In this document: one piece after another, positions 1-14,254 of the stretch
How positions within the stretch are numbered: position 1 is the first letter of the stretch
Layout of the letters: the number at the start of each line of letters is the position of its first letter
Source: Desulfogranum japonicum DSM 18378
GTDB taxonomy: Bacteria > Desulfobacterota > Desulfobulbia > Desulfobulbales > Desulfobulbaceae
Direction of reading: 5' to 3'
NCBI RefSeq assembly: GCF_000429945.1
Contig: NZ_AUCV01000027.1
Location: 24,239-88,238 of the forward strand
DNA: 64,000 nucleotides
Notes under the pieces: generated by a model
Told to the model about the DNA's origin: nothing
What the model saw: only the letters and a program-made list of their open reading frames with translations
The model's database searches: none
Position numbers and translations under genes: made by a program

Positions 1-837
1 GGAAATTATATGATGACAGTCTCCCCACTCGCATCCTACGCTGGGCAATCCGGCGCCTCTCTTCTGCTGGCCAGGGATTTGACCGAAGAACAGCTCATGA
101 AGGCAGAAGCACTTCGCGCCGCGCAACTGGCATCTGTCGGCGAACTTGCAGCTGGTGTGGCTCACGAAATCAATAATCCCATTAACGGGATCATCAATTA
201 TGCCCAGATTCTCATCGATAACCAGCCAGATAAAGGCGACAGGCATTTTCTCAGGTGCATAATCAAGGAAGGAAAACGAATAGCTGGAATCACCCGCAAG
301 CTTCTCGATTTCTCGCGAAAGGTGGAAGACGCACCGGAGCCGATTACCATCCAGCCACTTGTCAGTAATTGCATAGACCTGATACAGCATCAGCTTTCCA
401 TGGATGGTATTGAACTGGCACTGAACTTTGATCCCGACCTGCCGCTTATACACTGTAATCCCCACCAGTTACAGCAGGTACTGCTCAACATATTCAGTAA
501 TGCCAGGCACGCGGTAAATGAAAAGTTTGCAGGCAATATAACAGAAACCAAAAACGTCATACTGGAGGCCAAGCCAAAACAGATAGATAACCGGCAATAC
601 GTTCGCTTGACCATCACCGATAACGGCACAGGAATTAAACATGAGATTATCGACCGGGTAATGGATCCTTTTTTCTCTACCAAACCCCACGGCCAAGGAA
701 CAGGTCTGGGCCTGAGTATCAGTCAGAGTCTTGTTCAAGAAAATGGAGGATTCCTGCGAATACACAGTGAACTGGGTGCATATACCTCGGTACAGATTGA
801 CCTCCCGGTTTCAGGACATGAAGGAGAATTGGCATGA
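1..837 (+). CDS. Sensor histidine kinase, C-terminal part (5' end outside window)
   Basis: The frame is open from base 1, so the gene begins upstream and the ATG at 10 is probably internal. The visible 278 residues start with what looks like the end of a PAS domain (…GASLLLARDLTEEQ), then a HisKA helix with AGVAHEINNP (phospho-accepting His about 52 residues after the ATG at 10) and an HATPase_c domain with an N-box (NIFSNARHAV), G1 (DNGTGI) and GTGLGLS. It is an NtrB-type kinase. Its stop overlaps the next start (ATGA), and an NtrC-type regulator follows two genes on, so it is the likely phosphodonor of that regulator. The kinase call is firm; the stimulus is unknown. Confidence 0.93.
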   Translation, partial: GNYMMTVSPLASYAGQSGASLLLARDLTEEQLMKAEALRAAQLASVGELAAGVAHEINNPINGIINYAQILIDNQPDKGDRHFLRCIIKEGKRIAGITRKLLDFSRKVEDAPEPITIQPLVSNCIDLIQHQLSMDGIELALNFDPDLPLIHCNPHQLQQVLLNIFSNARHAVNEKFAGNITETKNVILEAKPKQIDNRQYVRLTITDNGTGIKHEIIDRVMDPFFSTKPHGQGTGLGLSISQSLVQENGGFLRIHSELGAYTSVQIDLPVSGHEGELA

Positions 838-1619
838 CCCTGCAGTCAAAAATTGTTACCCAAACCGGCCTGGCTTTCGGCCTGACCATTATCATGATTT
901 TTTATCTGATCCACCACCAGGGCAGTCACCATGCAGCAAGTTCTCTCTCCTATCCCCTTCTCGGAATAACCTTGCTGGCAATCCTGTTTGCGGTGGTAGT
1001 AATTCTCATGCAATCTGTTTTCCGCATGGCAGAACAGGAAGCAGCAAGGGCTGAAAAGGATCTTGAGGCGTTAACCAGATCACTTAAAGAAACCACAACT
1101 GACCTGGAAAACCATGTGGAGCGGCGTACGTTTGAAATCTCTGTCGCCAATGCATCACTGAACCGGGAAATTGCAGAACGCATTCAGGCCGAAGCTGAGA
1201 TGAAAAAGGTACAAAGGCAAATGGAGCTCATTCTTGAATCTGCCGGGGACGGAATTTTTGGTCTGGACGCGGACGGAAATGTCACGTTTATGAACAGGGC
1301 TGCCTCCAACATGCTGGGCTGGAGCGCAGAAGAGCTAATAGGAAAATCCCATCATGATCTTGTGCATCACAGTTATACTGATGGTTCCCGCTATCCGGTT
1401 GATTCATGCCCCATAAGTCAGGCCTATCTAGACGGTAAGGTGCATGTCGGTGCAGACGAAATATTCTGGACCAGAGATGGGAAAGGATTTCCCGTTGAAT
1501 ATATCAGCACTCCCATTATAGAACAGAAAAAATTCACAGGCGCTGTTGTTGTTTTTCGGGAAGTACATAATGGACGTGATCACAAAGCAGCAAACAGGAC
1601 AGGAGTAATCCATGAATGA
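834..1619 (+). CDS. Membrane PAS sensor protein without kinase domain
   Basis: A 261-residue protein with two N-terminal membrane helices (about 8-26 and 40-62), a charged helical/coiled-coil linker (about 65-135) and one PAS domain (about 135-245, with ILESAGDGIFGLDADGNVTFMN and a W..DGKGFPVEY segment). It ends after the PAS, so there is no HisKA or ATPase part. It overlaps the upstream kinase by 4 nt and the downstream activator by 8 nt, so the three are translated together. I infer that it is a detached input module feeding the kinase or the activator. The ligand is unknown. Confidence 0.8.
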   Translation: MTLQSKIVTQTGLAFGLTIIMIFYLIHHQGSHHAASSLSYPLLGITLLAILFAVVVILMQSVFRMAEQEAARAEKDLEALTRSLKETTTDLENHVERRTFEISVANASLNREIAERIQAEAEMKKVQRQMELILESAGDGIFGLDADGNVTFMNRAASNMLGWSAEELIGKSHHDLVHHSYTDGSRYPVDSCPISQAYLDGKVHVGADEIFWTRDGKGFPVEYISTPIIEQKKFTGAVVVFREVHNGRDHKAANRTGVIHE

Positions 1620-3432
1620 CGACAGCACCTCCAGCCAACATAGTATTCTAGTAGTAGATGACGAAGAAAGCCTCAGGAATACGTTTCAGTTTTTTCTGAA
1701 AAAACAGGGCTATTCCCCGGTTATCACGGCATCGACCTTTATCGAGGCAATGGAAGCCATCTCTCACCATTGCTTTGATCTCATAATCAGCGATATAGTA
1801 CTTGGCGGACAATCGGGAATTGATTTTCTCCGTTCCATTCGTGACCAGGGGGTCAGCTGCCCGGTTGTCATGATAACCGGGTATCCGAATGTCGATACTG
1901 CATCAGAAGCTGTTCGTCTCGGAGCCTTTGACTATATTCCAAAACCTGTTGAAAAGGAGACGCTGCTCAAAACAGCCAGACTGGCTCTCCAGCAATGGGA
2001 GCTGCAGAACGAGCGGATACGAGTTGAAGAAGAAAAAGAACGTTATCGCGTTTTCCTTGAAACGGTCTTTAAAAGTGTCACTGATGGAATTGTAACCCTT
2101 GACTCCAATCTGCAGGCCATGGACATGAATCCGGCAGCACGCCTGCTTTTCAGCCAACTTTACAAAGATACTGTTGATCATCACATTATACTGCACCTCT
2201 GTGGTCTGGCTGATTTTCAGCCCTTAAAAAACGATCTTCTCAGAGTATTGAAAACCGGTGTGGAAGTGTCGGAACATCGGCTGGAATGTCAGACCATCGG
2301 GCAGCAGAAAAAAATTCTGAGCATCTGCACATCACCATTAAAAGGTGATGCAGCATCCTCCGACGGACTGGTTCTGGTCATTCGAGATATGACCAACCCC
2401 ACAGATACCCCCTCATCTCCTCGCACAAGATTCCATAGCTATATCGGAAAAAGCGATGCAATGCAGGCAGTGTATACCATGATTGAAAATGTCGGCAGGG
2501 TGGATCTGACAGTATTGATTACCGGGGAATCAGGGACCGGCAAGGAACTGGCAGCAGAAGCCCTGCATAACGAAAGCAGACGCAAAAACAAGCAATTGAT
2601 AAAGGTTGACTGTACAGCCATCCCGGAAAACCTCCTGGAAAGCGAACTCTTCGGGCATCGTAAAGGTTCGTTTACCGGGGCTGACAGAGATCGGATGGGA
2701 AGAATTCTCCAGGCCGATGGAGGCACGCTGTTTCTCGATGAAATCGGAGATATCTCTCCTATGATGCAACTCAGACTCCTGCGATTTCTTCAGGAGAGCA
2801 CCTTTTATCCTGTGGGTCAGGACACCCCCATAAAGGTGGATGTACGTGTGATTGGCGCCACCAATGTAGACCTCAAGGAAAAAGTCAGTAAGGGTGAATT
2901 TAGAGAAGACCTGTACTTTCGACTCAGGGTAATAGATGTCATGCTCCCGCCTTTGCGAGAACGTGACGGCGATATCGACCTGCTTGCATCTCATTTCATT
3001 GAACGTACAGCCAACAGTATAGGCAAAAGCATCAATGGCCTTTCAGCACAGGCGCAGAAAACCCTTCGCCAATATCCCTGGCCAGGTAATGTCAGAGAAC
3101 TGCAGCATGCCATGGAGCGAGCCTGCGTTCTTTGCAATGGACCAACTATTTCAACGGATGAACTCCCACCGGAAATTCTCAACTATAATCCTGTCAAAAC
3201 AGAAATTTCCATGCAAAAAGAAGAACAGCCTGTAGCCAGCCCTTCTGTTCCTCTCACAAATACGCAACCTCCCGTGGAACAACATGTTCCCATGGAGGTG
3301 CGTATCATTGAAACCTTGAAAAAAACCGGAGGCAATAAAGCCAAGGCTGCGCGGCTCTTGAACATTGACCGTACGACTTTATATCGGAAAATAAAGGAAT
3401 TTAATCTGGATTTATCTTCCCTCGACCTTTAG
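1612..3432 (+). CDS. NtrC-family sigma-54 response regulator (receiver-PAS-AAA+-Fis HTH)
   Basis: 606 residues: receiver domain 10-125 with phospho-Asp D61 (ISDIVL) and KP at 111-112; PAS-like segment 143-262; sigma-54 interaction AAA+ domain about 275-505 with Walker A GESGTGKE (305-312) and the sigma-54 contact loop GSFTGA (GAFTGA in most homologues); Fis-type helix-turn-helix at the C-terminus (NKAKAARLLNIDRTTLYRKI). It activates sigma-54 promoters when phosphorylated. It is the last gene of the sensor operon and is followed by sigma-54 promoters ahead of ftsH, the small-protein pair and the CPBP pair, which makes these its probable targets (inference). Confidence 0.93.
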   Translation: MNDDSTSSQHSILVVDDEESLRNTFQFFLKKQGYSPVITASTFIEAMEAISHHCFDLIISDIVLGGQSGIDFLRSIRDQGVSCPVVMITGYPNVDTASEAVRLGAFDYIPKPVEKETLLKTARLALQQWELQNERIRVEEEKERYRVFLETVFKSVTDGIVTLDSNLQAMDMNPAARLLFSQLYKDTVDHHIILHLCGLADFQPLKNDLLRVLKTGVEVSEHRLECQTIGQQKKILSICTSPLKGDAASSDGLVLVIRDMTNPTDTPSSPRTRFHSYIGKSDAMQAVYTMIENVGRVDLTVLITGESGTGKELAAEALHNESRRKNKQLIKVDCTAIPENLLESELFGHRKGSFTGADRDRMGRILQADGGTLFLDEIGDISPMMQLRLLRFLQESTFYPVGQDTPIKVDVRVIGATNVDLKEKVSKGEFREDLYFRLRVIDVMLPPLRERDGDIDLLASHFIERTANSIGKSINGLSAQAQKTLRQYPWPGNVRELQHAMERACVLCNGPTISTDELPPEILNYNPVKTEISMQKEEQPVASPSVPLTNTQPPVEQHVPMEVRIIETLKKTGGNKAKAARLLNIDRTTLYRKIKEFNLDLSSLDL

Positions 3433-3461
3433 CCCGAAAGAAGCAATCACGTAAGGTCAGT

Positions 3462-3504
3462 GGGAAAAATACGTTATCCGATCTTGTAGGTATCTCAACA
3501 CCTT
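3462..3504 (+). repeat. Dispersed repeat copy A
   Basis: About 30 of 35 bases match 47112-47146 in the same orientation (shared core TTATCCGATC and TCTCAAC). Confidence 0.55.
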
Positions 3505-3654
3505 CTCCTTGCTGCTTCAATGGTTCCATACCGGTCGTTTGCTCCATTGATACAGCAGGGAGAATCAGCCGATATCCTGTGAATCCTTTGGTGAGGTATT
3601 GCTTTCCGCGCTCCTGGCGGTTTACATCATTCCAACTGAGACGCCACACTATCG

Positions 3655-3693
3655 TTGCAACACACCTGTGGTAAAACCACAGGTGTGTTGCAA
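3655..3693. repeat. Perfect 18-bp inverted repeat, probable activator-binding site
   Basis: The left arm TTGCAACACACCTGTGGT and its exact reverse complement ACCACAGGTGTGTTGCAA flank a 3-nt AAA loop. No T-run follows, so it does not look like an intrinsic terminator. It lies about 200 bp upstream of the -24/-12 promoter, where NtrC-type activators usually bind. The TGCAACA core recurs upstream of the 10.3-kb sigma-54 promoter. Confidence 0.7.
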
Positions 3694-3892
3694 TATTCTG
3701 CAATCCTCCGTCTCTTCTCCTAGATCCCTCCACGAAGAACCAATTGTATATATTTTCCATCTTTTTCAACTGGTTAGCCGATCGCGATGAAACATTCGCT
3801 TATTTCCGGCATACAGACCCGGCAATAACAACACTCTAAAAAACACCTTAATTCAGAAAGATACCCAAACACCCAGTCAATGTTACTGATGT

Positions 3893-3910
3893 GTGGCATT
3901 GCCTGTGCAA
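3893..3910 (+). promoter_or_regulatory. Sigma-54 (-24/-12) promoter for ftsH-redox operon
   Basis: TGGCAT-TGCCTG-TGCA has the invariant GG (3895-3896) and GC (3907-3908) exactly 10 nt apart and fits the TGGCACG-N4-TTGCW consensus well. The predicted start point, near 3920, leaves a leader of about 75 nt before the ftsH-like ATG at 3997. Confidence 0.8.
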
Positions 3911-3996
3911 TTCAAAAGGAAACGAATGAATACGTATTCATTCTTCTCCCTTAGGTTAATACATGGAGCATATGCTGCATCAGCAGCAAGAGCACA

Positions 3997-5805
3997 ATGA
4001 AAAATAGTATTCAATTTGGCCTGTTTATCCTGACATTTTCTGTATTGCTCTTGATTGGTTACAATATCTATCTCCGCGAAATAACGCCTCCAGAACAAAA
4101 GTATACTGATTTATTGCACGAACTGGAAAACAAACGAATTCTCAGTGTTCATTTTAAAGGAGGATGGGCTACCACCAAGGACGAATATGGAAGGACTTAC
4201 CGAACCTATGTTCCTGATCTGCAAACACTCATTCCCCAACTGATAAGCAAAAACATTACACTCTCTGCTGAGCCTGATCAGGAAGCCGGAACAGCGGCAT
4301 TCATGAAATACGTATTGCTGGCCATGCTTGTCTTTGGCGGCTGGCTCCTGTTCAGCAACAGATCTGGAAAAAAATTACCCTTTGCCGAGAACACCAGGAG
4401 CAAACGTTTTTCACCTGTTACCACCGACACAGTGACGTTTGAAGATGTGGAGGGAATTGCAGAGGCAAAGCTTGAATTACAGGAAATCGTCCAGTTTCTG
4501 AAAAATCCTGAAAAATATCGGGAAATAGGCGCCAGAATTCCCAGGGGGGTTCTCCTGCAGGGGTCACCAGGAACAGGAAAAACCCTCCTTGCCAAGGCAA
4601 TTGCCGGTGAAGCTGATGTTGCTTTTTTTTCCCTTGGCGGCTCGGATTTTGTTGAAATGTTTGTCGGTGTGGGGGCTTCAAGGGTGCGAGAGCTTTTCGA
4701 TGAAGCCAAACACAGTGCACCCTGTATCATATTCATCGACGAAATAGATGCTATTGGGGGCAGACGCAGTGGCGGTACCTCCAGTGGAGCCAGCGATGAA
4801 CGGGAACAAACCCTCAATGCCCTGCTTGTTGCAATGGACGGATTCTCATCAGGGGAGACAATCATTGTCGTAGCAGCCACCAACAGACCTGAAATTCTTG
4901 ATCCAGCCCTGCTGAGACCCGGCCGATTTGACAGACAGATAACCATTCCGGTACCGGACGTTAAAGGGCGCATCAAAATTCTTGCAGTACATACGCAAAA
5001 AATTCGCATGGCACCGGATGTAGACTTGCCTTCCCTTGCCCGCTCTATCCCTGGTTTCAGTGGAGCTGAAATCGCAAATCTTGTCAATGAAGCTGCCCTC
5101 ATGGCAGCACGCCATGACAAAAATCTGGTGGAAATGGCTGATTTTGAAGAAGCAAAAGACAAAATCATCATGGGGCTGGAGCGCAAGAGCGTTGTCGTCA
5201 GTGAACAGGACCGGCGGGTCACGGCCTACCATGAGGCTGGCCATGCCATAGTCGGCATGATACTCCCAGACACCGACCCCATTCACAAAATCACGATCAT
5301 TCCCCGGGGAAGGGCCATGGGGATGACCCAGCAACTTCCCCTGGATGATCGCAATACCTATTCCCTGGAATACCTCCTCGCCCGAATCAAAACCCTCATG
5401 GGAGGACGTGTCGCCGAGGCCCTGGTGTTCCATCGTCTGACCACAGGAGCCAGCAACGATATTTTGGTGGCAACACAAATCGCCCAGAAAATAGTCTGCG
5501 AATGGGGCATGAGTGAAACCATGGGTCCCATAGCATACGGTCCCCAGGAAAACAGGCAGGCGCCCCTCTCCGAACTTAGCGAACAGACCAGTCAGGCAAT
5601 TGACCGGGAAATACAGCATATCATCACAGAATGTTACGAAGAAACAACAGCCATACTGACAAAGCACAATAAATTTCTCCATAAATTCGCAGAGGCTCTT
5701 CTTCTCAACGAAACCCTGGACGCGGAAGAGGCCGACATTGTGTACCGACATTATGTTCGAGAGCGCGAGATGGAACGAAAACTCTCTGGTGTAAGGAGTG
5801 AGTAA
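3997..5805 (+). CDS. ftsH: FtsH-family membrane AAA+ zinc metalloprotease
   Basis: 602 residues. Two membrane helices (about 6-25 and 101-119) bracket a short periplasmic loop. The AAA+ domain follows: Walker A GSPGTGKT (189-196), pore loop [10 protein letters not shown], Walker B FIDEIDA, and the second region of homology around [19 protein letters not shown]. The M41 protease has HEAGH (412-416) and the downstream acidic zinc ligand in TTGASND. It degrades membrane and short-lived proteins. It is slightly shorter than typical housekeeping FtsH and sits behind a sigma-54 promoter in an operon with a redox complex, so it is probably an accessory paralogue for assembly or turnover of that complex (inference). 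The Shine-Dalgarno is weak. Confidence 0.94.
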
Positions 5806-5857
5806 CCGTCACGCTCTATTTATATTCTTTTATGGATTTTCAGCAGGAGGATTAACA

Positions 5858-6382
5858 ATGCACCTACTTACCAAAGGAGCATGGGCTGCACTTTTTGTGC
5901 TGTTCATTGCATCCTATGCACCGACTAACAGCTGCGCAATGGAAGCCGGGGATGCCCCGGAAAGCGTGGAAATCGATTCGTTATCAGAACTCTACGAACC
6001 CGTGCAGTTCGATCACGCAATGCACCTGGACATAGCAGAATGCCAGGATTGTCATCATCACACCACCGGCCAGAAACCGAATGATGATAATTGCCTGCGT
6101 TGCCACGAAAACAGCGGAGAAGCCGACTCGATCTCCTGTGCCGATTGTCACGCTGCGGATCGATTTTCTCCCCAGGACCTTGCTGCACGCGAGGGAGGGC
6201 GCATCTATCACATTGATAAACCCGGTCTCAAGGGAGCATATCACCTCAATTGTATCAGCTGCCATGAGGAAAATGGCGCGCCCACCGGTTGCCAGGACTG
6301 TCATGCCATGACCGATAAAGGAAAAGAGGTATTTCAGACCAGCATTGTTCCACCTGCAGACGGGCATCATGAACATGAGTAA
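5858..6382 (+). CDS. Periplasmic pentahaem cytochrome c (class III-like)
   Basis: I choose the ATG at 5858 because AGGAGG precedes it at normal spacing. An earlier in-frame start at 5798 would spoil the signal peptide. The 174-residue product has an N-terminal export signal (about 1-28) and five CxxCH haem motifs (62-66, 79-83, 94-98, 132-136, 145-149), with extra His residues (53, 56, 118, 129) available as distal ligands, as in cytochrome c3 relatives. It should carry electrons in the periplasm. The adjacent Tat-exported ferredoxin and NrfD-like subunit make it the cytochrome subunit of a membrane redox complex of Hmc/Nhc/DsrJOP type. Five haems match none of the well-known complexes I recall. 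Confidence 0.9.
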   Translation: MHLLTKGAWAALFVLFIASYAPTNSCAMEAGDAPESVEIDSLSELYEPVQFDHAMHLDIAECQDCHHHTTGQKPNDDNCLRCHENSGEADSISCADCHAADRFSPQDLAAREGGRIYHIDKPGLKGAYHLNCISCHEENGAPTGCQDCHAMTDKGKEVFQTSIVPPADGHHEHE

Positions 6383-6418
6383 GAACATCAAAAAGACTCT
6401 CTACAGTGGTGATAGATT

Positions 6419-7345
6419 ATGAAAAAAGCAGTAAGCCGTAGAAAATTTCTTAAAGGCGGACTGGCGGGATCAGCCGCACTGTCGCTGACAACAGCGAAAC
6501 GAAGTGAAGCAAAATCTTTTGAAGGATATCCGGATGCCATGGGTGTATTGGTAGACCTGTCTCGCTGTGTTGGCTGCCGAAGCTGTGAAGCAGCCTGTAA
6601 CAAAGAGCAAGGGTTGCCGGCACCGGAAAAGCCATTCAACGACTATTCGGTTTTTGACGAAATACACCATGGCCAGAAACGACGTACCGATGAAACCCGA
6701 TACACAGTGGTTAACAAGTACGAAGTGCCGGGCATGGACCACCCTCTTTTTCGGAAAATTCAATGTAACCATTGCCAGGAACCTGCCTGTCTCACCTCGT
6801 GTTTTGTCAATGCCTACACAAAGACGCCGGAAGGTGCGGTGATTTATAACCCAAAAGTTTGTGTTGGATGCCGGACCTGTATGATAGCCTGCCCCTTTTA
6901 TATACCGACTTTCAGGTATTCCAGCGCCTTCAACCCCCGTATCATGAAATGCATATTCTGTTACGATACCAGACTTCAATACGGTAAACCTCCTGCATGT
7001 GTTGAAGCCTGCCCCCAGGAAGCACTGACGTTTGGAAAGCGCGAAGACCTCATCAATATCGGCAGACAGCGTATACGCGAAAACAAGGGACAGTATGTCA
7101 GCCATATTTACGGCGAACACGAAGCAGGGGGAACATCATGGATGTATCTCTCACCGGTTGACTTTGACGAAGTTGGTTTTGATACCAAAGTGCCTAAGGA
7201 ACCTATCCTGAATTTCGTCAAGGATTTTCTCTCCATCGTGCCCATGGTGCTCACCATCTGGCCTGCCCTTTTTGCAGGAATCCACCTGCTGGCCACACGC
7301 AAAGATGCCATAAAAACAAAGGAAGAAACCAAGGGGGATAAGTAA
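6419..7345 (+). CDS. Tat-exported four-cluster ferredoxin subunit (HybA/HmcB/DsrO-like)
   Basis: 308 residues. The N-terminus has a twin-arginine signal (SRRKFLKGG followed by a hydrophobic stretch). Four cysteine groups for [4Fe-4S] clusters follow (CVGCRSCEAAC, CNHCQEPACLTSC, CVGCRTCMIAC, CIFC…CVEAC). A C-terminal membrane anchor lies at about 268-292 (FLSIVPMVLTIWPALFAGIHLL), as in HybA. It should pass electrons between the pentahaem cytochrome and the NrfD-like subunit on the periplasmic side. The spacing to the next gene is only 2 nt. There is no molybdopterin or hydrogenase catalytic gene nearby. Confidence 0.93.
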   Translation: MKKAVSRRKFLKGGLAGSAALSLTTAKRSEAKSFEGYPDAMGVLVDLSRCVGCRSCEAACNKEQGLPAPEKPFNDYSVFDEIHHGQKRRTDETRYTVVNKYEVPGMDHPLFRKIQCNHCQEPACLTSCFVNAYTKTPEGAVIYNPKVCVGCRTCMIACPFYIPTFRYSSAFNPRIMKCIFCYDTRLQYGKPPACVEACPQEALTFGKREDLINIGRQRIRENKGQYVSHIYGEHEAGGTSWMYLSPVDFDEVGFDTKVPKEPILNFVKDFLSIVPMVLTIWPALFAGIHLLATRKDAIKTKEETKGDK

Positions 7346-7347
7346 CA

Positions 7348-8601
7348 ATGAAAACAATTGCCCAGGAATCCCAGGAGATTCCAATTAATGACCACGTTCA
7401 AACCGACGGTACGCGCTGGAAAATAAAAGAAAAACTTTTCCTCGGCCTCAGCAAGGAGGAATACAAGGCTCAGGCCATGCGTAATCCGGTCAACTGGGTT
7501 CTGTTTATCATCTTTCTCGTAGGCCTGCCTCTACTCGCAACCCGCTATCTCGGCGGTCTGGATACGGTTACCCATTCTTCCAATGATTACCCCTGGGGTC
7601 TGTTTCTTGGTTTCGGACTTTTTGGCATGGTCCCGCTTTCCGCTTCAGGATTCCTGCTTGGTACCACCGTTGAGATCTTTGGACGCAAAGATTTTGTACC
7701 CATTGAACGCCTTGCGCTGCTGAATGGCTTACTTGGCTACTTCTTTGCAGTGATTTATCTGGAAGTTGACCTGGGTATGCCATGGCGTCTCCCCTACCCC
7801 ATGTTTGTGTCCCTTGGACCAGCAGCAGTCCTTTTTCTGGTGGCCTGGCATGTGGCCACGTACCTTTCTGTGCAGATAGCCGAGGTTGCGCCCTCACTGT
7901 TTGAATGGATGGGCTGGTTAAAAGCAAAACGTTTCATCAAGTCAATTACCATCGGCCTGACAATTGCCGGTATTATTCTCTCTACCCTACACCAGGGTGC
8001 GTTGGGAGCCCTGTTTTGCTATGCACCGACCAAAGTGCATCCACTCTGGCTTTCTACCAATTTTATGTGGATTCACTTTTTCTGCTCTGCAATCTTCGCA
8101 GGTCTTTCCATGGTTATCGTGGTTTCCACGCTGTGTAAATATTTCATGCGCTGGCGCTGTGATGAACGGTTTCTCAATGCTGTAGACCCACTGACCGTTG
8201 CCCTGGGCAAAGGATGTGCCTATGCTCTCATCACTTACCTGGTTATCAAGATTGTCGGTATCGCCCATGACAACGAGTGGGAATACCTGCTGACCGACTG
8301 GGGATTTTACTACACACTCGAACTTGGTCTTGGTGCGCTACTGCCACTGATTCTGTTTACAGTTGGCGTGAAGTATGGTTGGCCCAATGTGGTAAGAACT
8401 GCAGCTGTTATCACAGTGATAGGCGTAGTCATGAACAGACTCAATACATCTCTCATCAGCTTTAACTGGAATCTATACCAGGAGATACCGCGCTGGCAGG
8501 AAATATGGATCACTGTTACCATTTTTGCGGTGTACTTTATTACCTACCGCTTCATTCTGTACCGCCTTCCAATTCTCTATGAATGGAAAGGAGAAAAATA
8601 A
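7348..8601 (+). CDS. NrfD/HybB/HmcC-like integral membrane quinone-interacting subunit
   Basis: 417 residues with about ten hydrophobic helices from residue 48 on and a hydrophilic N-terminal segment. Conserved NrfD-superfamily features include the YPWGLFLGFGLFG and YFFAVIYLEVDLG regions. Such proteins bind menaquinol and exchange electrons with the periplasmic FeS partner. It is the last gene of the ftsH-cytochrome-ferredoxin operon and is followed by a strong terminator-like hairpin. The direction of electron flow and the physiological partner cannot be read from the sequence. Confidence 0.92.
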   Translation: MKTIAQESQEIPINDHVQTDGTRWKIKEKLFLGLSKEEYKAQAMRNPVNWVLFIIFLVGLPLLATRYLGGLDTVTHSSNDYPWGLFLGFGLFGMVPLSASGFLLGTTVEIFGRKDFVPIERLALLNGLLGYFFAVIYLEVDLGMPWRLPYPMFVSLGPAAVLFLVAWHVATYLSVQIAEVAPSLFEWMGWLKAKRFIKSITIGLTIAGIILSTLHQGALGALFCYAPTKVHPLWLSTNFMWIHFFCSAIFAGLSMVIVVSTLCKYFMRWRCDERFLNAVDPLTVALGKGCAYALITYLVIKIVGIAHDNEWEYLLTDWGFYYTLELGLGALLPLILFTVGVKYGWPNVVRTAAVITVIGVVMNRLNTSLISFNWNLYQEIPRWQEIWITVTIFAVYFITYRFILYRLPILYEWKGEK

Positions 8602-8615
8602 ACCCTTATCCTCAG

Positions 8616-8655
8616 CCTGGCCGGATATCTACCGGCCGGGCATTTTCTTTTTTTG
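8616..8655 (+). terminator. Intrinsic terminator after NrfD-like gene
   Basis: CCTGGCCGG…CCGGCCGGG forms a GC-rich stem with a 7-nt loop and is followed by a T-rich run (ATTTTCTTTTTTT). It lies between the NrfD-like gene and the pseudokinase, only 13 nt before the latter's GTG, so read-through may be regulated. Confidence 0.75.
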
Positions 8656-8667
8656 CAGGAGTAAATC

Positions 8668-10140
8668 GTGCAGGATCCAATACAACGCTCATGGTTGCAG
8701 AAATGGTTTCTGACCCGCCCCATTCACAGTATTTTTACCTATGCCAACCTGACCATTCTTCTTCTCCTTATCGGAACTTCATTCCTCGGAGTTCGACAGT
8801 ACTTACACTACCAACGCTGTTCTTCCATGGTTTCGGAAAGCGACAGCCTCAACTTTCAATTCAATACACTTCAGCAATACCTCTCAACTGCACTCATAGA
8901 AGGCAAGAAGTTTGACCTGGATAGAATAACCAAAGAATCGCAGCAGCTGACTCGACAAGCCGGCATGTTGCAACAAAACGTTCTGGTTCCTGATTCTTTC
9001 AAGGCGTATCTCATTTCAGAACAAAAAATGACCCAACTTCTTGTGCGGCTTCATGAGATACAGGACAGTAAAAAATGGAGCCCCCAACAGATTGCCGGGG
9101 TCATCAGCCAGTTGAACGGCATGGCAGCGGACTTACAGCAATTCCGCCTGCAACTCAATGAATATACACAAAATATCATATCTGGATTACACAAGGTCAT
9201 AATTGGATTTCTGGGACTATTCGTAGGCCTGAGCTGTATGCTGCTCTTCAGTTTGAATCAAAGCATTGCTCACCCACTCCTGTCCCTGGCATACAGGGTA
9301 CACACTCAAGTTCAGGTCAATCCTCCAGAACAAAAGGAAAAGCCATCACTCACCATGCAGACCCTGTTAGATGAAACAGAACAGCTGCTGGAGCATTCAG
9401 TGCATACAGAAATTGCTTCTTCACGGCTTATTCCCAATCAGAACCAATATCTTGCCATAGCTCGGGGATCAATTTTTCTTCATGCGGAACACGCACTGAC
9501 CAATCTCACCAATGGTATTCTCAACTATACCCAGCAACTGATTGATCTGGAACCAGACATGGACGCAGATATGCAGCATACGATTCTCAAATCCCTTCGC
9601 AAAGAAGAAGAGAGGTTAGCCACATTGGTTCGCTGTCTGAGAAAGTGTACTGGAACCAACAAGGGAAAGCTTCTGCCCGTTGCCTTTACAGACTTCATTG
9701 AAAACCTGAGACTCACTGTAACCAAAACCATGGCCGCTCAGGGCGTTCAACTGTATATTCAAGCAGATCCGTTGCTCATATCCGAGTTTCCCCCCTTAAA
9801 TGGTATCAGCCTGCTCATATGCATGACACTCCTCGAAGGTGGTCGATTATGTGTACAGGATGATGCAGATCCTGAAAACAGATGGATTCGCCTCACTGTG
9901 GAAAGATCTGATCAAGGTGAGGCAATCCTGCGTTTCAGCAATGGTGCTGATGACTGGCATGCCTGCAATAATCTCGATGCAACACTGTGGCCAGACCGCA
10001 CACTCTGTAAAGCATGGATACAGGAGCAGGGGGGAACACTTTCACTGCCCACCCCTTCTGACACCAACGGGAATATAACCTTGCGATTATCCGCACTTTA
10101 TCCCAATAAGCCTACACACCAAGACCTGCGTGCAACATAA
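8668..10140 (+). CDS. Membrane sensor with degenerate histidine kinase (pseudokinase)
   Basis: 490 residues starting at GTG (GCAGGAG lies 8 nt upstream). Two membrane helices (about 22-44 and 173-196) enclose a periplasmic helical sensor region. The C-terminal half aligns with the intact kinase at base 1: …TNGILNYTQQLID matches INGIINYAQILID, and the phospho-acceptor His survives as H275 (EHALTNL). However, the HE/D-x-x-N-P motif is lost, and the N-box and the DNGxG G1 box are not recognisable. It probably cannot bind ATP or autophosphorylate. I infer a regulatory pseudokinase tied to the redox complex or its two-component system. Confidence 0.75.
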   Translation: MQDPIQRSWLQKWFLTRPIHSIFTYANLTILLLLIGTSFLGVRQYLHYQRCSSMVSESDSLNFQFNTLQQYLSTALIEGKKFDLDRITKESQQLTRQAGMLQQNVLVPDSFKAYLISEQKMTQLLVRLHEIQDSKKWSPQQIAGVISQLNGMAADLQQFRLQLNEYTQNIISGLHKVIIGFLGLFVGLSCMLLFSLNQSIAHPLLSLAYRVHTQVQVNPPEQKEKPSLTMQTLLDETEQLLEHSVHTEIASSRLIPNQNQYLAIARGSIFLHAEHALTNLTNGILNYTQQLIDLEPDMDADMQHTILKSLRKEEERLATLVRCLRKCTGTNKGKLLPVAFTDFIENLRLTVTKTMAAQGVQLYIQADPLLISEFPPLNGISLLICMTLLEGGRLCVQDDADPENRWIRLTVERSDQGEAILRFSNGADDWHACNNLDATLWPDRTLCKAWIQEQGGTLSLPTPSDTNGNITLRLSALYPNKPTHQDLRAT

Positions 10141-10239
10141 CCGCAGCATCGTGCAACACCTCTTTGCAATAATCCCACACAACTGCAGATCAACCTGTTG
10201 CACACATCACTTCTGTAGCGCAATCATTTGTCCGCAACA
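10131..10239. promoter_or_regulatory. Cluster of TGCAACA/TGTTGCA activator-like sites
   Basis: TGCAACA at 10131-10137 and 10152-10158, TGTTGCA at 10196-10202 and GCAACA at 10234-10239. These lie 80-190 bp upstream of the sigma-54 promoter at 10319 and match the core of the perfect inverted repeat at 3655-3693. Confidence 0.5.
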
Positions 10240-10318
10240 TTTGGAGTTTCACCATATTTACCTTGAAAAAACAACACATTACAGACAAAGCAGCAGCTAT
10301 CCTTTTTTGACAACAAGC

Positions 10319-10334
10319 TGGCACCATTGATGCA
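10319..10334 (+). promoter_or_regulatory. Sigma-54 promoter for the small membrane protein pair
   Basis: TGGCAC-CATTGA-TGCA, with GG (10320-10321) and GC (10332-10333) separated by 10 nt. It lies 46 nt before the ATG at 10381, which has a strong AAGGAGG ribosome binding site. Confidence 0.82.
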
Positions 10335-10380
10335 ATTATTACTGCAAAGATAATAAATGCATCAATTCAAGGAGGACACC

Positions 10381-10575
10381 ATGACTATTCAAGTTCTGAA
10401 AAAACAAGATGCAAAGGTAGATATTGGACATGAGACTTCAAAATTTTCCCTGACAATTGTCATGGCAATGGCTGCTTTAGTCAGCATATGGGCAGTTGCC
10501 TGTCTATTTGGAGGTCTTATGAGCGGAGGTGTTGGTACAATAATAAAAGGATATATCACTGCAGTTTTCGGATAA
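10381..10575 (+). CDS. Small single-span membrane protein, unrecognised
   Basis: 64 residues. The ATG at 10381 is preceded by CAAGGAGGACACC and is preferred over the upstream ATG at 10357. A charged N-terminus (to about residue 20) is followed by one membrane helix (about 22-46) and a short GGVGTIIKGY tail. I do not recognise a family. The strong ribosome binding site and sigma-54 promoter suggest high conditional expression. It is paired with the next small membrane protein and may be an accessory subunit or regulator of the nearby redox complex (inference). Confidence 0.7.
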   Translation: MTIQVLKKQDAKVDIGHETSKFSLTIVMAMAALVSIWAVACLFGGLMSGGVGTIIKGYITAVFG

Positions 10576-10630
10576 ACATCAACCCATTCATGGGACAATT
10601 ATACACTATTGTAGCAAGGAGGAATACACC

Positions 10631-10933
10631 ATGGCTAAAGTAACATCGGGAAAAACATCCAGTGGCATCATACTTGTTATCGCATCACTGGTTCTCTTTT
10701 GGGTATCTGCGGCATTCTTTGGTGCACTGCATCATTTGGATTGGCAGGTCGGAGAACTGCTGCGACAGTATATGGTTGCTACAGGTATGATCAAACCGAT
10801 GCACACCCTTGTTGACTTTTATACCCATATTAAAGGCATAGAATACCTCATCTGTGTAGCATTTTTTGTAGCCTTCCCAGTATTCGTGAAATATATCAAC
10901 CACGAAAAGAGACCAGCAAAAGTAACTGCCTAA
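10631..10933 (+). CDS. Small two-span membrane protein, unrecognised
   Basis: 100 residues starting at ATG with GCAAGGAGG upstream. Helices are predicted at about 11-33 and 68-90, with His-containing inter-helix sequence (ALHHLDW, PMHTLVDFYTHIKG) that could bind haem or metal; this is only a suggestion. It sits 55 nt behind the 64-residue protein under the same sigma-54 promoter and is followed by an excellent terminator, so the two form a bicistron. No family is recognised. Confidence 0.72.
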   Translation: MAKVTSGKTSSGIILVIASLVLFWVSAAFFGALHHLDWQVGELLRQYMVATGMIKPMHTLVDFYTHIKGIEYLICVAFFVAFPVFVKYINHEKRPAKVTA

Positions 10934-10946
10934 TCTCTCTCCCCAA

Positions 10947-10985
10947 CCCCGTTAACGAGCATGTGAGTTAACGGGGTATTTTTTC
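10947..10985 (+). terminator. Intrinsic terminator after small-protein bicistron
   Basis: A perfect 10-bp stem CCCCGTTAAC/GTTAACGGGG with a 10-nt loop, followed by TATTTTTTC. Confidence 0.9.
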
Positions 10986-11143
10986 ATCACACCAAAAACA
11001 CCGGCACAACCCGATACCTGCAATCATTTCCCCGTGTCCGCTCAAGCAAAGCCCTTTGCTGTATAGTTGCTGCCTGTCGACAAATGTACTTTTGGAGTCT
11101 CGCTCCGCCCTTACCTCACCACTTTTTGCGTCATACTCAAATT

Positions 11144-11188
11144 TTTGTAACTGATACCAGTATTGTTACCCCTGTGATCAGTTACAAA
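11144..11188. repeat. Perfect 12-bp spaced inverted repeat
   Basis: TTTGTAACTGAT (11144-11155) and ATCAGTTACAAA (11177-11188) with 21 nt between them. It could be an operator or an RNA stem. The TAACTGATCA core also occurs at 44457-44466. Confidence 0.6.
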
Positions 11189-11665
11189 TCTTTTTCTTGA
11201 AAGTAAAGGTGAGCAAAAATCCACATTTACGGCCAGACACTCGTTGACGATTTGATAAGACAACCAGACAGGACACTGGCGAACAGTATCTTGTATATCT
11301 ACTCAGCAGCCACCTTCAGGTTGCTCATATCATTCTACATGTTCCGCACAACGGATTACCAAAATAGTGTTGCGCTTGCGCCTGAAGACTTGTCACTGTG
11401 AAAAGGATACGATACCATAGCAACATGATTTCGTAGTTTGAACCCTTGAATCCGTGGCAGCTCATCCTTGCTCCCAAGGCGTTACATCCTATGATCAGAT
11501 ACAGAGCACTGTCGGTAATAAACAAAACAAACAGCCATATTTCCGCAATCAAGAATATATTTATTCAGTTTTCTGAAATATTCTTTGCAGAGCATTAGTG
11601 CCCCATGCACCATAAACAGATGGCAACCCACTGATGACACAACACTTTAACAACAACACCCCTAA

Positions 11666-11681
11666 AGGAACGTTTCTTGCA
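11666..11681 (+). promoter_or_regulatory. Sigma-54 promoter for the CPBP pair
   Basis: AGGAACG-TTTC-TTGCA: GG (11667-11668) and GC (11679-11680) are 10 nt apart, and the ACG-N4-TTGCA half is an exact consensus match. The ATG at 11727 lies 46 nt downstream. Confidence 0.82.
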
Positions 11682-11726
11682 AAGCAATAGTTTCAGAAAT
11701 ATTTCTTAACAACAATAAGGATTAGC

Positions 11727-12005
11727 ATGTCATCTCCAAAAGATAATAAACCACCTGAAATAGGGCCCTATGTATTCCCTGTAATACTTGCCACATTTGG
11801 ACTCTGGTGCATGTATGACGGCTGGTTTACCGCAGCCCCAGAAATGCAGGAGCATATCCTGTTCAACCGCATTGCTGCCGGCTGCCTCATCCCCTGGGCA
11901 ATAATTGATTTTTATCGTACCAGAAAACGCCTTGCAAAAGAGAAGGCAATCAACACCTCGGAAAGCACATCTAACCCAACAGCAGGGGATCAAACCCAAC
12001 AATGA
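11727..12005 (+). CDS. Small two-span membrane protein, unrecognised
   Basis: 92 residues with two probable membrane helices (about 13-30 and 45-62) and a polar Ser/Thr/Gln-rich tail. AATAAGGATTAGC precedes the ATG. Its stop overlaps the start of the CPBP protease gene (ATGA), so translation is coupled and the two products probably act together in the membrane. Function unknown. Confidence 0.72.
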   Translation: MSSPKDNKPPEIGPYVFPVILATFGLWCMYDGWFTAAPEMQEHILFNRIAAGCLIPWAIIDFYRTRKRLAKEKAINTSESTSNPTAGDQTQQ

Positions 12006-12688
12006 TAGAAAATTGCAGGCTCCTGCTACCCTACGTTGCCCCGTATTTTTCATATGTTTGCGTAGCTTCTCTCCTGCATGACGCACTCCCCGTTGAGCTG
12101 AATTATGTCTTGCGGATAATTCTGGCCTCAGGATTCTTATACTGGGCCTGGGATTGGTATATCCCCCTCCACGAAACAGGAAAGAAAACCACATCAGTAC
12201 TGTTTGGCCTGGCATATGGCACAGTAGGCTGTGCATTGTGGATTCTGCTACTTTCACCTTTTGTAAGCCCTGAAAATACCCCCCCCTGGAGCAACATCAG
12301 CATCATCATACGAATAGCAGCAGCAGGATTTTTGGTACCGGTGTTCGAAGAACTCATGGTACGGGGTTATGCCTTCCGCCTTGCGCTGCAGTGGGATACA
12401 TGCAGAAAAGAAAAAGTTACAGATCCACTGTACACGACTCTCCACGAACGAAGCATTAACGATGTCGCGCCTGAAGCATGGTCCTGGCCAGCAGTATGCA
12501 TTTCAACCGCTGTTTTTACGATCGGCCACGCTATTCCCGAATGGCCGGCAGCCGTTGCTTATGGGTTACTCATGTGCCACCTGATGATACAACGCAAAAA
12601 CCTGCTTTCCTGCATTATTGCTCACGCCACCACCAATATTCTTCTGGCAGGATACGTATATCTGACCGGTTCATACCACCTCTGGTGA
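12002..12688 (+). CDS. CPBP (CAAX/ABI) family intramembrane metalloprotease
   Basis: 228 residues, mostly hydrophobic. The family's three catalytic motifs are complete: EExxxR (E116, E117, R121), FxxxH (H176 in FTIGH) and HxxxN (H208, N212 in IAHATTN). These form the glutamate/metal site of CPBP proteases in the membrane. The length and the LLPYVAPY start resemble the CAAX-protease-related group often found near exosortase/EPS loci, but no exosortase is seen here. It is co-expressed from a sigma-54 promoter with a small membrane protein, which could be its partner or substrate (inference). Confidence 0.88.
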   Translation: MIENCRLLLPYVAPYFSYVCVASLLHDALPVELNYVLRIILASGFLYWAWDWYIPLHETGKKTTSVLFGLAYGTVGCALWILLLSPFVSPENTPPWSNISIIIRIAAAGFLVPVFEELMVRGYAFRLALQWDTCRKEKVTDPLYTTLHERSINDVAPEAWSWPAVCISTAVFTIGHAIPEWPAAVAYGLLMCHLMIQRKNLLSCIIAHATTNILLAGYVYLTGSYHLW

Positions 12689-12843
12689 GATACAGACACC
12701 ATCTGCATTATAACACACAGAGCTCCCGTCAATACCGCTATGCCTGACATTACGCCTGTTTTTTAGCAATTGCATGGCGCGAACACTCCCTGCAAACAGC
12801 AGGCTTTAACCTATACAAAAGCCACTAATCATCAAACATTTCT

Positions 12844-12871
12844 ATTGGACTTATAGTGTGCCTATATAGTA
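12844..12871 (+). promoter_or_regulatory. Possible sigma-70 promoter upstream of double-cubane protein gene
   Basis: TTGGAC followed after about 15-16 nt by TATAGT/TAGTAT, roughly 105 nt before the ATG at 12977. No GG-N10-GC element is found, so this gene appears to lie outside the sigma-54 group. Confidence 0.35.
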
Positions 12872-12976
12872 TATGCACCATCAATGTGAGGTTTTTACCG
12901 TCAGGAACCCACTCATTTTATCAAATCATGAGAAGGGCAGGCTGAGATCGGCTATCTTTACAAAAGGAATATACAA

Positions 12977-14254
12977 ATGGCAGAAGACTACAGAGACATG
13001 TGGACAAAACTAGGCCTTAACCTTGAAGCGCACGATGCCCTTCTCCAGATTCTGGGCCAAGCATATGCTGATATCTATGTTTCTCAAAAAGAGAGACCCG
13101 AAGGCATGGCCTACTTCGATTTTGTTATGAGCGAGGTCCACGGACTACGCATCAAGGAGCTACTTGAAGAAAAGGCCTCGGGAAGAAAAATCATAGGGTC
13201 CTACTGTGTTTTTGTCCCCGAAGAAATTGCACTTGCCGCCAATGCCACACTTGTAGGTTTATGCTCCGGGGCTGACTTTGCCCTGGAAGAAGTTGAAAGA
13301 CTCCTGCCAAGGAATACCTGCGCACTCATCAAATCATCTTTTGGTTTTAAACTCGGCAAAGTTTGCCCCTTTTTAGAAGCGGCTGACATGATTGTCGGCG
13401 AAAACACCTGTGACGGCAAAAAGAAAGCCTACGAGACCCTTGGACATCTGGTTAACAACCTGTATGTCATGGATCTACCTCAAATGAAAAGCCAGCTGGG
13501 CCGCAATTTGCTCAAGGCCGAATTCATCCGTTTCAAAGAGGCTGCGGAACAGCTTACAGGCACACCAGTGACAGCCGAATCCCTACGACAGGCCATTGAT
13601 ACTGTTAATGCCAAACGGGCTGCCCTTCATCGGTTATCTTCACTTCGCCATGCAGATCCTTCTCCGATCTCAGGCCTGGACGCCCTGCTCATCAATCAGG
13701 TCTCTTTTTACGACAATCCGGCTCGCTTTACAGAATCTGTCAATACAATGTGTGATGAACTCCAGCAACGAATTTCCGATCAGCATGGAGCGTTCCCCGC
13801 ACAGGCGCCTCGAATTTTAATTTCCGGCTGCCCCCAGGCTGTCCCCAATTGGAAACTTCCTGCACTAGTAGAAAAATCCGGAGCAGTGATAGTGGGAGAA
13901 GAATCCTGTGTAGGCGAAAGAGGGACGAGAAACCTGGTAGACAACAGCAACACAACTGTTGACGAAATGATCGAGGCCCTTGTTGACCGCTACTTCCAGG
14001 TGGATTGCGCCATATTCACCCCAAACAGGGAACGCATTGACCATATCCTGGAAATGCAGAAAGCATACAAAGCTGACGGGGTCATTCATTACGGCCTGCA
14101 ATTCTGCCAACCCTATCTCATGGAGTCCATTCCTGTAGAAAAGGCCCTGGAAGAACAAGGCATCCCATGCCTCCGCCTGGAAACCGACTATTCCATGGAA
14201 GATGCCGGGCAGCTTGAGACCAGAATCCAGGCATTTATTGAACAATTACAATAA
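12977..14254 (+). CDS. Double-cubane/2-hydroxyacyl-CoA dehydratase-type FeS protein (HgdB/BcrC/YjiM-like)
   Basis: 425 residues resembling the 2-hydroxyacyl-CoA dehydratase/benzoyl-CoA reductase D-type subunits and the free-standing double-cubane-cluster proteins. Conserved cysteines lie in GSYCVFVPEE, KVCPFLEAAD, GENTCDGKKK, SGCPQAVPNWK, GEESCVGERG and YGLQFCQPY. Family members receive very low-potential electrons from an ATP-hydrolysing activator to reduce difficult substrates. Only one such subunit is encoded, as in double-cubane proteins rather than heterodimeric dehydratases. An activator gene should follow, but only its first codons remain. Substrate unknown. Confidence 0.85.
   Translation: MAEDYRDMWTKLGLNLEAHDALLQILGQAYADIYVSQKERPEGMAYFDFVMSEVHGLRIKELLEEKASGRKIIGSYCVFVPEEIALAANATLVGLCSGADFALEEVERLLPRNTCALIKSSFGFKLGKVCPFLEAADMIVGENTCDGKKKAYETLGHLVNNLYVMDLPQMKSQLGRNLLKAEFIRFKEAAEQLTGTPVTAESLRQAIDTVNAKRAALHRLSSLRHADPSPISGLDALLINQVSFYDNPARFTESVNTMCDELQQRISDQHGAFPAQAPRILISGCPQAVPNWKLPALVEKSGAVIVGEESCVGERGTRNLVDNSNTTVDEMIEALVDRYFQVDCAIFTPNRERIDHILEMQKAYKADGVIHYGLQFCQPYLMESIPVEKALEEQGIPCLRLETDYSMEDAGQLETRIQAFIEQLQ

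Follow-up and report, generated by a model that had tools for sequence, protein, structure and literature searches.

What system is encoded at the left end of a 64,000-nucleotide (nt) stretch of Desulfogranum japonicum DSM 18378, where genes for a two-component switch, an FtsH protease, a cytochrome complex and a degenerate kinase follow one another? The whole stretch is called the window here (contig NZ_AUCV01000027.1; C22:24239-88238 of the 5.8-Mb host genome). Its positions 1-10933 form a module which, in our judgement, probably encodes a minimal complex of the Hmc type, is conserved among relatives, and is likely one regulon under its own sigma-54 two-component system. At the level of sequence, four things are established: what the module consists of, that the set is conserved, that sigma-54 sites are conserved too, and that the regions before the kinase, FtsH and small-protein units share a palindrome. 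Positions 10934-12688, which an earlier note on this DNA had counted in, lie outside the module.

Gene content of the module

The 13 predicted genes of positions 1-14254 were scanned against profile libraries (Pfam on 13, NCBIfam on 9), and membrane helices were judged by eye. The gene order and coordinates of the earlier note were confirmed, and the kinase gene extends past the left edge of the window. The domains found are kinase, PAS, NtrC-type regulator, FtsH, class III multihaem cytochrome, iron-sulfur (FeS) protein, HmcC/HybB-type NrfD-like protein and CPBP/Rce1 protease. The features are as follows (aa, amino acids; ORF, open reading frame; the hold-out matrix and the type I loci are described below).

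1..837, +, sensor histidine kinase, 3' part (GAF-PAS-PAS-HisKA-HATPase); full gene L001:8741-10837, 698 aa
834..1619, +, PAS protein with N-terminal membrane helices; PF00989 5.7e-19; likewise placed in many type I loci
1612..3432, +, NtrC-type response regulator, receiver-PAS-AAA-Fis helix-turn-helix; PF00158 2.2e-68, PF00072, PF02954; GSFTGA loop
3639..3695, +, three overlapping candidate regulator sites of the type TGCAACA-N4-TGTTGCA; hold-out matrix 19.9, 19.7 and 15.8 bits
3894..3909, +, sigma-54 promoter-like site before ftsH; 12.3 bits; 16-mer identical in L056, one base off in L036
3997..5805, +, module FtsH, AAA plus M41, HEAGH; TIGR01241 716 bits (cut-off 600); FtsH tree
5858..6382, +, pentahaem cytochrome c, single-domain, HmcA-like; five CxxCH; ORF listed from GTG 5798
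6419..7345, +, HmcB-like FeS protein with C-terminal membrane helix; NF045715 403 bits (cut-off 420); 16 Cys
7348..8601, +, HmcC-like NrfD-family quinone protein; NF045714 349 bits (cut-off 550)
8615..8654, +, terminator-like hairpin plus T-run in the gap between the hmcC-like and pseudokinase genes; fold z -3.7
8668..10140, +, pseudokinase, periplasmic helical bundle between two membrane helices, degenerate DHp-CA; kinase profile, fold, alignment
10128-10151, 10170-10193 and 10200-10223, +, candidate regulator sites before the small genes; hold-out matrix 12.5, 11.2 and 14.2 bits
10319..10334, +, sigma-54 promoter-like site before the small genes; 15.4 bits
10381..10575, +, s72, one predicted membrane helix; ORF listed from 10357; 64-aa relatives; GGAGG before ATG 10381
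10631..10933, +, s100, s72-like N half fused to an HmcD-like C half; NF045712 4e-4, 20.3 bits (cut-off 34); alignment A3
10946..10984, +, terminator-like hairpin with U-run after the s72-s100 unit; fold z -4.4

The gap between regulator and FtsH measures 564 bp. For the hairpin at 8615-8654, a strict test found a counterpart in just 2 of 39 relatives.

Conservation in related genomes

The best 80 of 560 matches among named genomes, ranked by HmcC similarity, were taken as relatives; this is a sample of the nearest loci, and kinship between the species means that they are not independent. The loci were split into 62 of type I, 17 of type II and one unclassed. Type I comprises, by definition, the loci with at least one of FtsH, pseudokinase and small genes; its shares of these are descriptive and do not serve as a test. 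Denominators comprise loci with sufficient flank only, and the same genome was entered twice as L083 and L037, as L116 and L041, and as L095 and L194.

The fullest type I order is kinase-PAS-regulator-[X]-FtsH-cytochrome-HmcB-HmcC-pseudokinase-(s72-s100)n, where X is a transposase relative treated below; many of the carriers are named Desulfobulbus, Desulfobulbaceae or Desulfocapsa. HmcB adjoins HmcC in all 77 readable loci (type I 61/61, type II 16/16). The cytochrome gene is present in 54/58 type I and 15/15 type II loci, with five haem motifs in 52/54 and 15/15. A regulator lies on the same strand within 9.5 kb in 30/36 type I and 8/11 type II loci, and some others have it on the opposite strand. 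The remaining parts are confined to type I: FtsH upstream (38/47; type II 0/14), a pseudokinase adjoining HmcC (39/56; 0/16) and the small proteins s72/s100 (33/37; 0/11). Across the phylum, s100 matches were found in 34 of 395 genomes, own genome included, and 20 of the 30 s100-match loci examined (L013-L032) have a match to the cytochrome query within 1.5 kb.

The type II set consists of kinase, regulator, CheY-like protein, short HmcD, cytochrome, HmcB, HmcC, an sCache-like protein and a 174-aa protein. Here, the sCache-like protein replaces the pseudokinase beside HmcC (16/16), the short HmcD-like gene is found in 13/15 loci, and the protein of about 174 aa gave no Pfam match (one scanned). 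Twelve of the 17 carriers are named Desulfuromonadales, Desulfuromonadaceae or Geobacteraceae. Type II loci are L096, L100, L101, L103, L105, L107, L109, L112, L114, L121, L123, L124, L128, L130, L132, L134 and L135.

Sigma-54 sites and a shared palindrome

Sigma-54 sites were scored with a matrix built by hand from the known consensus; the thresholds of 12 and 9 bits used in this section are our own choice. The GG-N10-GC sites which had been proposed as three promoters all exist (3894, 10319, 11666). The two strands of the window hold 14 sites of at least 12 bits, so GG-N10-GC sites alone are weak evidence. In the relatives, sites of at least 12 bits precede s72 in 23/38 loci, X in 20/27, and FtsH in 4/4 where it directly follows the regulator. 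In the controls, they were found in 3% of 432 other upstream regions, before 1/77 hmcB genes and before 0/31 FtsH genes following X or another unlabelled gene. In loci with X it is X that the promoter-like site precedes, and before s72 the site usually lies at a distance of about 65-90 nt.

Words enriched in the target upstream regions led to the palindrome TGCAACA-N4-TGTTGCA. A first matrix gave at least 9 bits in 62/70 target regions and 14/297 others, being fitted on the same targets that it scored. A hold-out matrix was trained on 61 regions, with those of L056, L057 and the window left out. The four matches that it scores highest in the 64-kb window are at 3639, 3653, 3672 and 10200, that is, before FtsH and the small genes; the fifth and sixth (12.6 and 12.5 bits) fall in other places, and 10128 comes seventh. 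A perfect 18-nt inverted repeat with arms 3655-3672 and 3676-3693 corresponds to two facing regulator-site candidates. At the kinase start, the palindrome scores 20.2 bits (L001:8739-8762), and among type I kinase upstreams, which were outside the training set, 12/21 have at least 13 bits and 8/21 less than 3 bits. Because the palindrome is common to the FtsH, small-gene and kinase upstreams, these three units are likely one self-regulated regulon. Two of the three proposed promoters, 3894 and 10319, are thus supported by conservation in relatives and by the shared upstream palindrome; the one at 11666 is not, since it recurs in 0/5 relatives and has no palindrome. Likewise, the first two gene groups are kept together in relatives and the third is not.

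The redox complex

The redox set follows the plan of NrfD-family complexes, periplasmic cytochrome and FeS subunits with an NrfD-like membrane protein, and, as the earlier note had stated, it has no catalytic subunit. The window cytochrome has five CxxCH motifs and probably starts at ATG 5858 and not at GTG 5798, M21 being nearly invariant in relatives. A profile of 12 pentahaem cytochromes (alignment A2) matches residues 378-511 of the 16-haem HmcA (PDB 1h29; 5.4e-23) and residues 170-289 of the nine-haem NhcA (1duw; 1.6e-15), in both cases the last domain. The HmcB-like protein scores 403 bits with the HmcB profile and 94 with DsrO, and carries a Tat-like signal (TAT_signal 20.3 bits, cut-off 22.7). 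The HmcC-like protein also matches the HybB family; it is 57-79% identical to 11 relatives and 81% to Desulfogranum marinum (L056). In an HmcC tree of 96 rows, the 91 module rows group with support 81/97, apart from the 16-haem Hmc operon and three paralogues of the own genome, the outside rows being on very long branches.

By these profile matches and the last-domain alignments, the set that had been thought to match no nameable complex is Hmc/Nhc-like: its proteins appear as relatives of Hmc subunits, not as members. Canonical Hmc or Nhc membership was rejected, as profile cut-offs were missed and there are five haems rather than 16 or nine. For NhcA (NF045784) the score is 31 of 640 bits, and no match to HmcE or HmcF was found among the 13 predicted genes scanned.

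In some relatives the locus encodes additional multihaem proteins. An octahaem protein follows HmcC in L095/L194 and in L098, and that of L095 is Cytochrome_cB (PF11783), of the octahaem tetrathionate reductase family; a 19-haem protein is found in L108 and L129. Judging by such variants, electrons may run from quinol to periplasmic acceptors. Where an octahaem Cytochrome_cB follows HmcC, quinol oxidation towards such an acceptor is the likelier direction. No periplasmic electron acceptor is encoded in the window.

Compared with Hmc of Desulfovibrio (HmcABCDEF; subunit list from PMC10924467), the module shares an HmcB-like FeS protein with C-tail, an HmcC-like NrfD protein, a candidate HmcD-like small protein and a cytochrome corresponding to the last domain of HmcA. 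It differs in having five haems instead of 16 and no HmcE/HmcF match, in having its own sigma-54 switch in place of rrf1/rrf2, and in FtsH and pseudokinase genes in the operon. Going by Table 1 of PMC8076601, Nhc (NhcABCD) has the same make-up of cytochrome, FeS, NrfD and small protein, but nine haems instead of five, and the module adds regulatory and protease genes. The triads of Tat tail-anchored FeS protein, HybB-like quinol oxidase and c-type cytochrome in PMC10924467 have the same three-protein plan; an octahaem cytochrome of the tetrathionate reductase family is often present there, which may apply to L095/L194 and L098. That paper reports no conserved pattern among the flanking genes, whereas here the switch, FtsH, small proteins and decayed kinase recur. 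The dsrOhPh-tetrahaem locus (PMC13047784), found in cable bacteria and in certain other Desulfobulbales, also joins FeS, NrfD and multihaem proteins in the same bacterial order, but with DsrO/DsrP relatives and a tetrahaem protein instead of an HmcB-type FeS protein. In the Desulfocapsa sulfexigens genome, polysulfide reductase-FeS-cytochrome operons are annotated that may reduce sulfur, according to PMC3739170.

Small proteins

The ORF s72, originally listed with 72 aa, likely starts at ATG 10381 behind GGAGG and would encode 64 aa. In alignment A3 (18 rows, of which L036:9925-10119 is in the wrong frame and aligns poorly), the N half of s100 aligns with s72. The C half aligns with 53-62 aa HmcD-like proteins that, in other families, lie ahead of the cytochrome, as well as with HmcD of the 16-haem operon L054; the match to the HmcD profile is weak (4e-4). 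Because the s100 halves align with s72 and HmcD, the two proteins appear to share one helix unit, which in s100 is fused to an HmcD-like half. Of three small membrane proteins first described as unrecognised, s100 thus has an HmcD-like half, s72 is its paralogue, and the third, of 92 aa, lies outside the module.

The s72-s100 units stand in tandem three times in L056 (L056:13707-16934), each copy with its own sigma-54 site, and twice in L077 and in L088. In G145 and G301, the small genes are apart from the complex (L043-L045 against L192, L193), both being present in the genome.

Switch, pseudokinase and FtsH

The regulator has all parts of a sigma-54 enhancer-binding protein, namely the receiver, an AAA domain with a GAFTGA-type loop and a Fis helix-turn-helix; among 25 regulators, the loop reads GSFTGA in 18, as in the window, and GAFTGA in seven.

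The pseudokinase was confirmed as such: it matches a profile of 31 kinases from these operons (E=1.3e-8), and N, G1 and G2 boxes were not found in the window protein. Its fold is that of a DHp-CA relative without catalytic boxes. In the acceptor column the His is kept and the next residue is Ala instead of Glu; by alignment, 25/46 pseudokinases keep this His, the window included. RetS, a kinase-like regulator, pairs with GacS; active kinases match the pseudokinase equally well, so that RetS-type regulators are not set apart by fold.

A tree of 67 FtsH proteins sets apart, with support 100/100 and on a long branch, 12 sequences that have no module neighbours and were taken as housekeeping. The FtsHs of modules, and those encoded next to s72 or pseudokinase genes, are placed outside this group, as are L159, L160 and L165, which have no module neighbours within 1.5 kb and fall among the module-type FtsHs. 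The labels 'module' and 'other' do not each form one clade, and many 'other' rows are from s72/pseudokinase loci. Further FtsH genes occur in the own genome; one of them, on C3 (L188:5519-8760), is directly upstream of an octahaem cytochrome and near regulators.

Gene X of related loci

In 29 of 40 readable loci, the gene before FtsH is X, a relative of IS1595 transposases with 234-385 aa, which is the first operon gene in most relatives seen, usually behind a sigma-54 site. No match to X was found in the genome of the window. Five X proteins scanned by Pfam have the Zn-ribbon and DDE_Tnp_IS1595 domains, not all above cut-off. Unlike IS1595 transposases, X keeps a fixed operon position in 29 loci and has lost the second catalytic Asp in 29/29; the first is kept in 5/29. 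Six insertion-sequence proteins served for comparison, two of them identical and some fragmentary; all six have the first Asp and four the second, the other two showing a gap and a Met there. Distances between X proteins track those of FtsH, HmcC and the regulator (Spearman 0.89-0.90; 0/500 permutations as high). An insertion passing through a hot spot was rejected because of this co-divergence and the lost Asp. In G357, the one carrier genome examined, other X matches are at most 38% identical. The best reading of these sequences is a domesticated, catalytically dead transposase, for which the Zn-ribbon makes DNA binding likely. X loci are L058, L059, L064-L067, L070, L072, L073, L076, L077, L080-L084, L086-L089, L091, L093, L094, L102, L111, L113, L117, L120 and L131.

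The s92-CPBP pair

Separated from s100 by 793 bp, the gene for the 92-aa protein (s92) and that for a CPBP/Rce1 protease (Pfam/NCBIfam scans) occupy 11727-12688. The pair occurs in 5/58 genomes of the order, own included, and is paired in all five (in relatives, L201-L204). In the window, L036 and L056 the pair lies close to the module; in G052 and G281, it follows an rsmA-like gene, with no s100 match in either genome. CPBP was found in 1/31 type I and 0/11 type II loci with enough flank. The site at 11666 has 12.8 bits; none of at least 12 bits precedes the 92-aa gene in five relatives, and the best palindrome near 11666 has 9.0 bits. The protease remains below the cut-off of TIGR03008 (PEP-CTERM-linked CAAX proteases; 70.3 of 81 bits). 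The pair was rejected as a module member on its unconserved promoter, missing palindrome, separate occurrence and the low share of CPBP in type I.

Proposed function and rival explanations

The complex would comprise the pentahaem cytochrome, the HmcB-like and HmcC-like proteins and the HmcD-containing small protein. It would sit in the membrane facing the periplasm and pass electrons between periplasmic cytochromes and menaquinone, in one direction or the other. The phosphorylated NtrC-type regulator may bind the palindrome and activate both target operons and its own. FtsH may clear misassembled or damaged complex subunits, or surplus s72/s100. The pseudokinase may sense the periplasm and tune the active kinase or the regulator, either by a RetS-GacS-like pairing or via the remaining His. 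Of the inducible redox module proposed earlier, an inducible-looking, conserved set with its own NtrC-type switch and FtsH as dedicated membrane protease stands; CPBP, the second of its two membrane proteases, belongs to a separate pair with s92.

Several observations weigh against an Hmc-type module under this switch. Scores remain below the NCBIfam cut-offs for all four subunits (HmcA NF045713 37.5/400, HmcB 403/420, HmcC 349/550, HmcD 20.3/34 bits). In type II, a sigma-54 site precedes the HmcD gene in 0/14 loci, without palindrome. An upstream FtsH is lacking from 9/47 loci of type I and from 14/14 of type II; it is thus not essential to the complex. In L195, s72-s72-FtsH-pseudokinase is followed by 5 kb free of redox genes, L196 combines kinase-regulator-s72-s72-FtsH-pseudokinase with a 5-haem/FeS/NrfD-like set of another kind, and L197 ends at the pseudokinase; from these loci, FtsH may serve the small proteins rather than the complex. 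The same loci, the separate position of the small genes in G145 and G301, and their amplification in L056, L077 and L088 speak for a core of switch, FtsH, s72/s100 and pseudokinase that answers membrane-protein stress, with the Hmc-like complex as an exchangeable, co-induced client. We regard this as unlikely. HmcB-HmcC and the pentahaem gene are more constant (61/61 and 54/58), though loci were chosen by HmcC; type II has complex and switch but no FtsH; and the fusion in s100 ties the small proteins to the complex.

Every redox subunit has Hmc or Nhc relatives, as would be expected if an Hmc or Nhc complex of the ordinary kind were locally regulated and FtsH and the other parts were mere neighbours. 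That explanation is improbable given the one-domain cytochrome, the missing HmcE/HmcF match, the missed cut-offs and the separate HmcC family, and since operon position, regulatory sites and divergence are common to FtsH, regulator and X. Least probable is a module of all three gene groups including CPBP: the GG-N10-GC site at 11666 and the nearness of the pair in three loci favour it, but palindrome, promoter conservation and the occurrence of the pair elsewhere do not, and a terminator-like hairpin stands between s100 and the pair. A bolder version of the Hmc-type module, in which the pseudokinase, encoded next to the quinone subunit, would read the complex or the quinone pool from the periplasm and adjust the switch of the operon, and the dead X would be a DNA-binding co-regulator at the same palindromes, is speculative and, in our estimate, rather doubtful; if true, a redox machine with sensor, switch, protease and recruited transposase would be held in one heritable unit.

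Implications

In the module, which is carried by sulfur-cycling bacteria related to Desulfobulbus, parts that are for the most part known stand in a new arrangement. Its loci offer a natural series of kinase decay, nearly always beside the same quinone-protein gene, and X would be a case of an IS1595 transposase retained as a dead operon gene. Little is understood of the Hmc-like complexes that link periplasmic cytochromes to menaquinone; the module presents a one-domain form of them. As candidate regulator sites and promoters are given base by base, the inducing signal should be findable by reporter assay in Desulfogranum or Desulfobulbus grown in culture.

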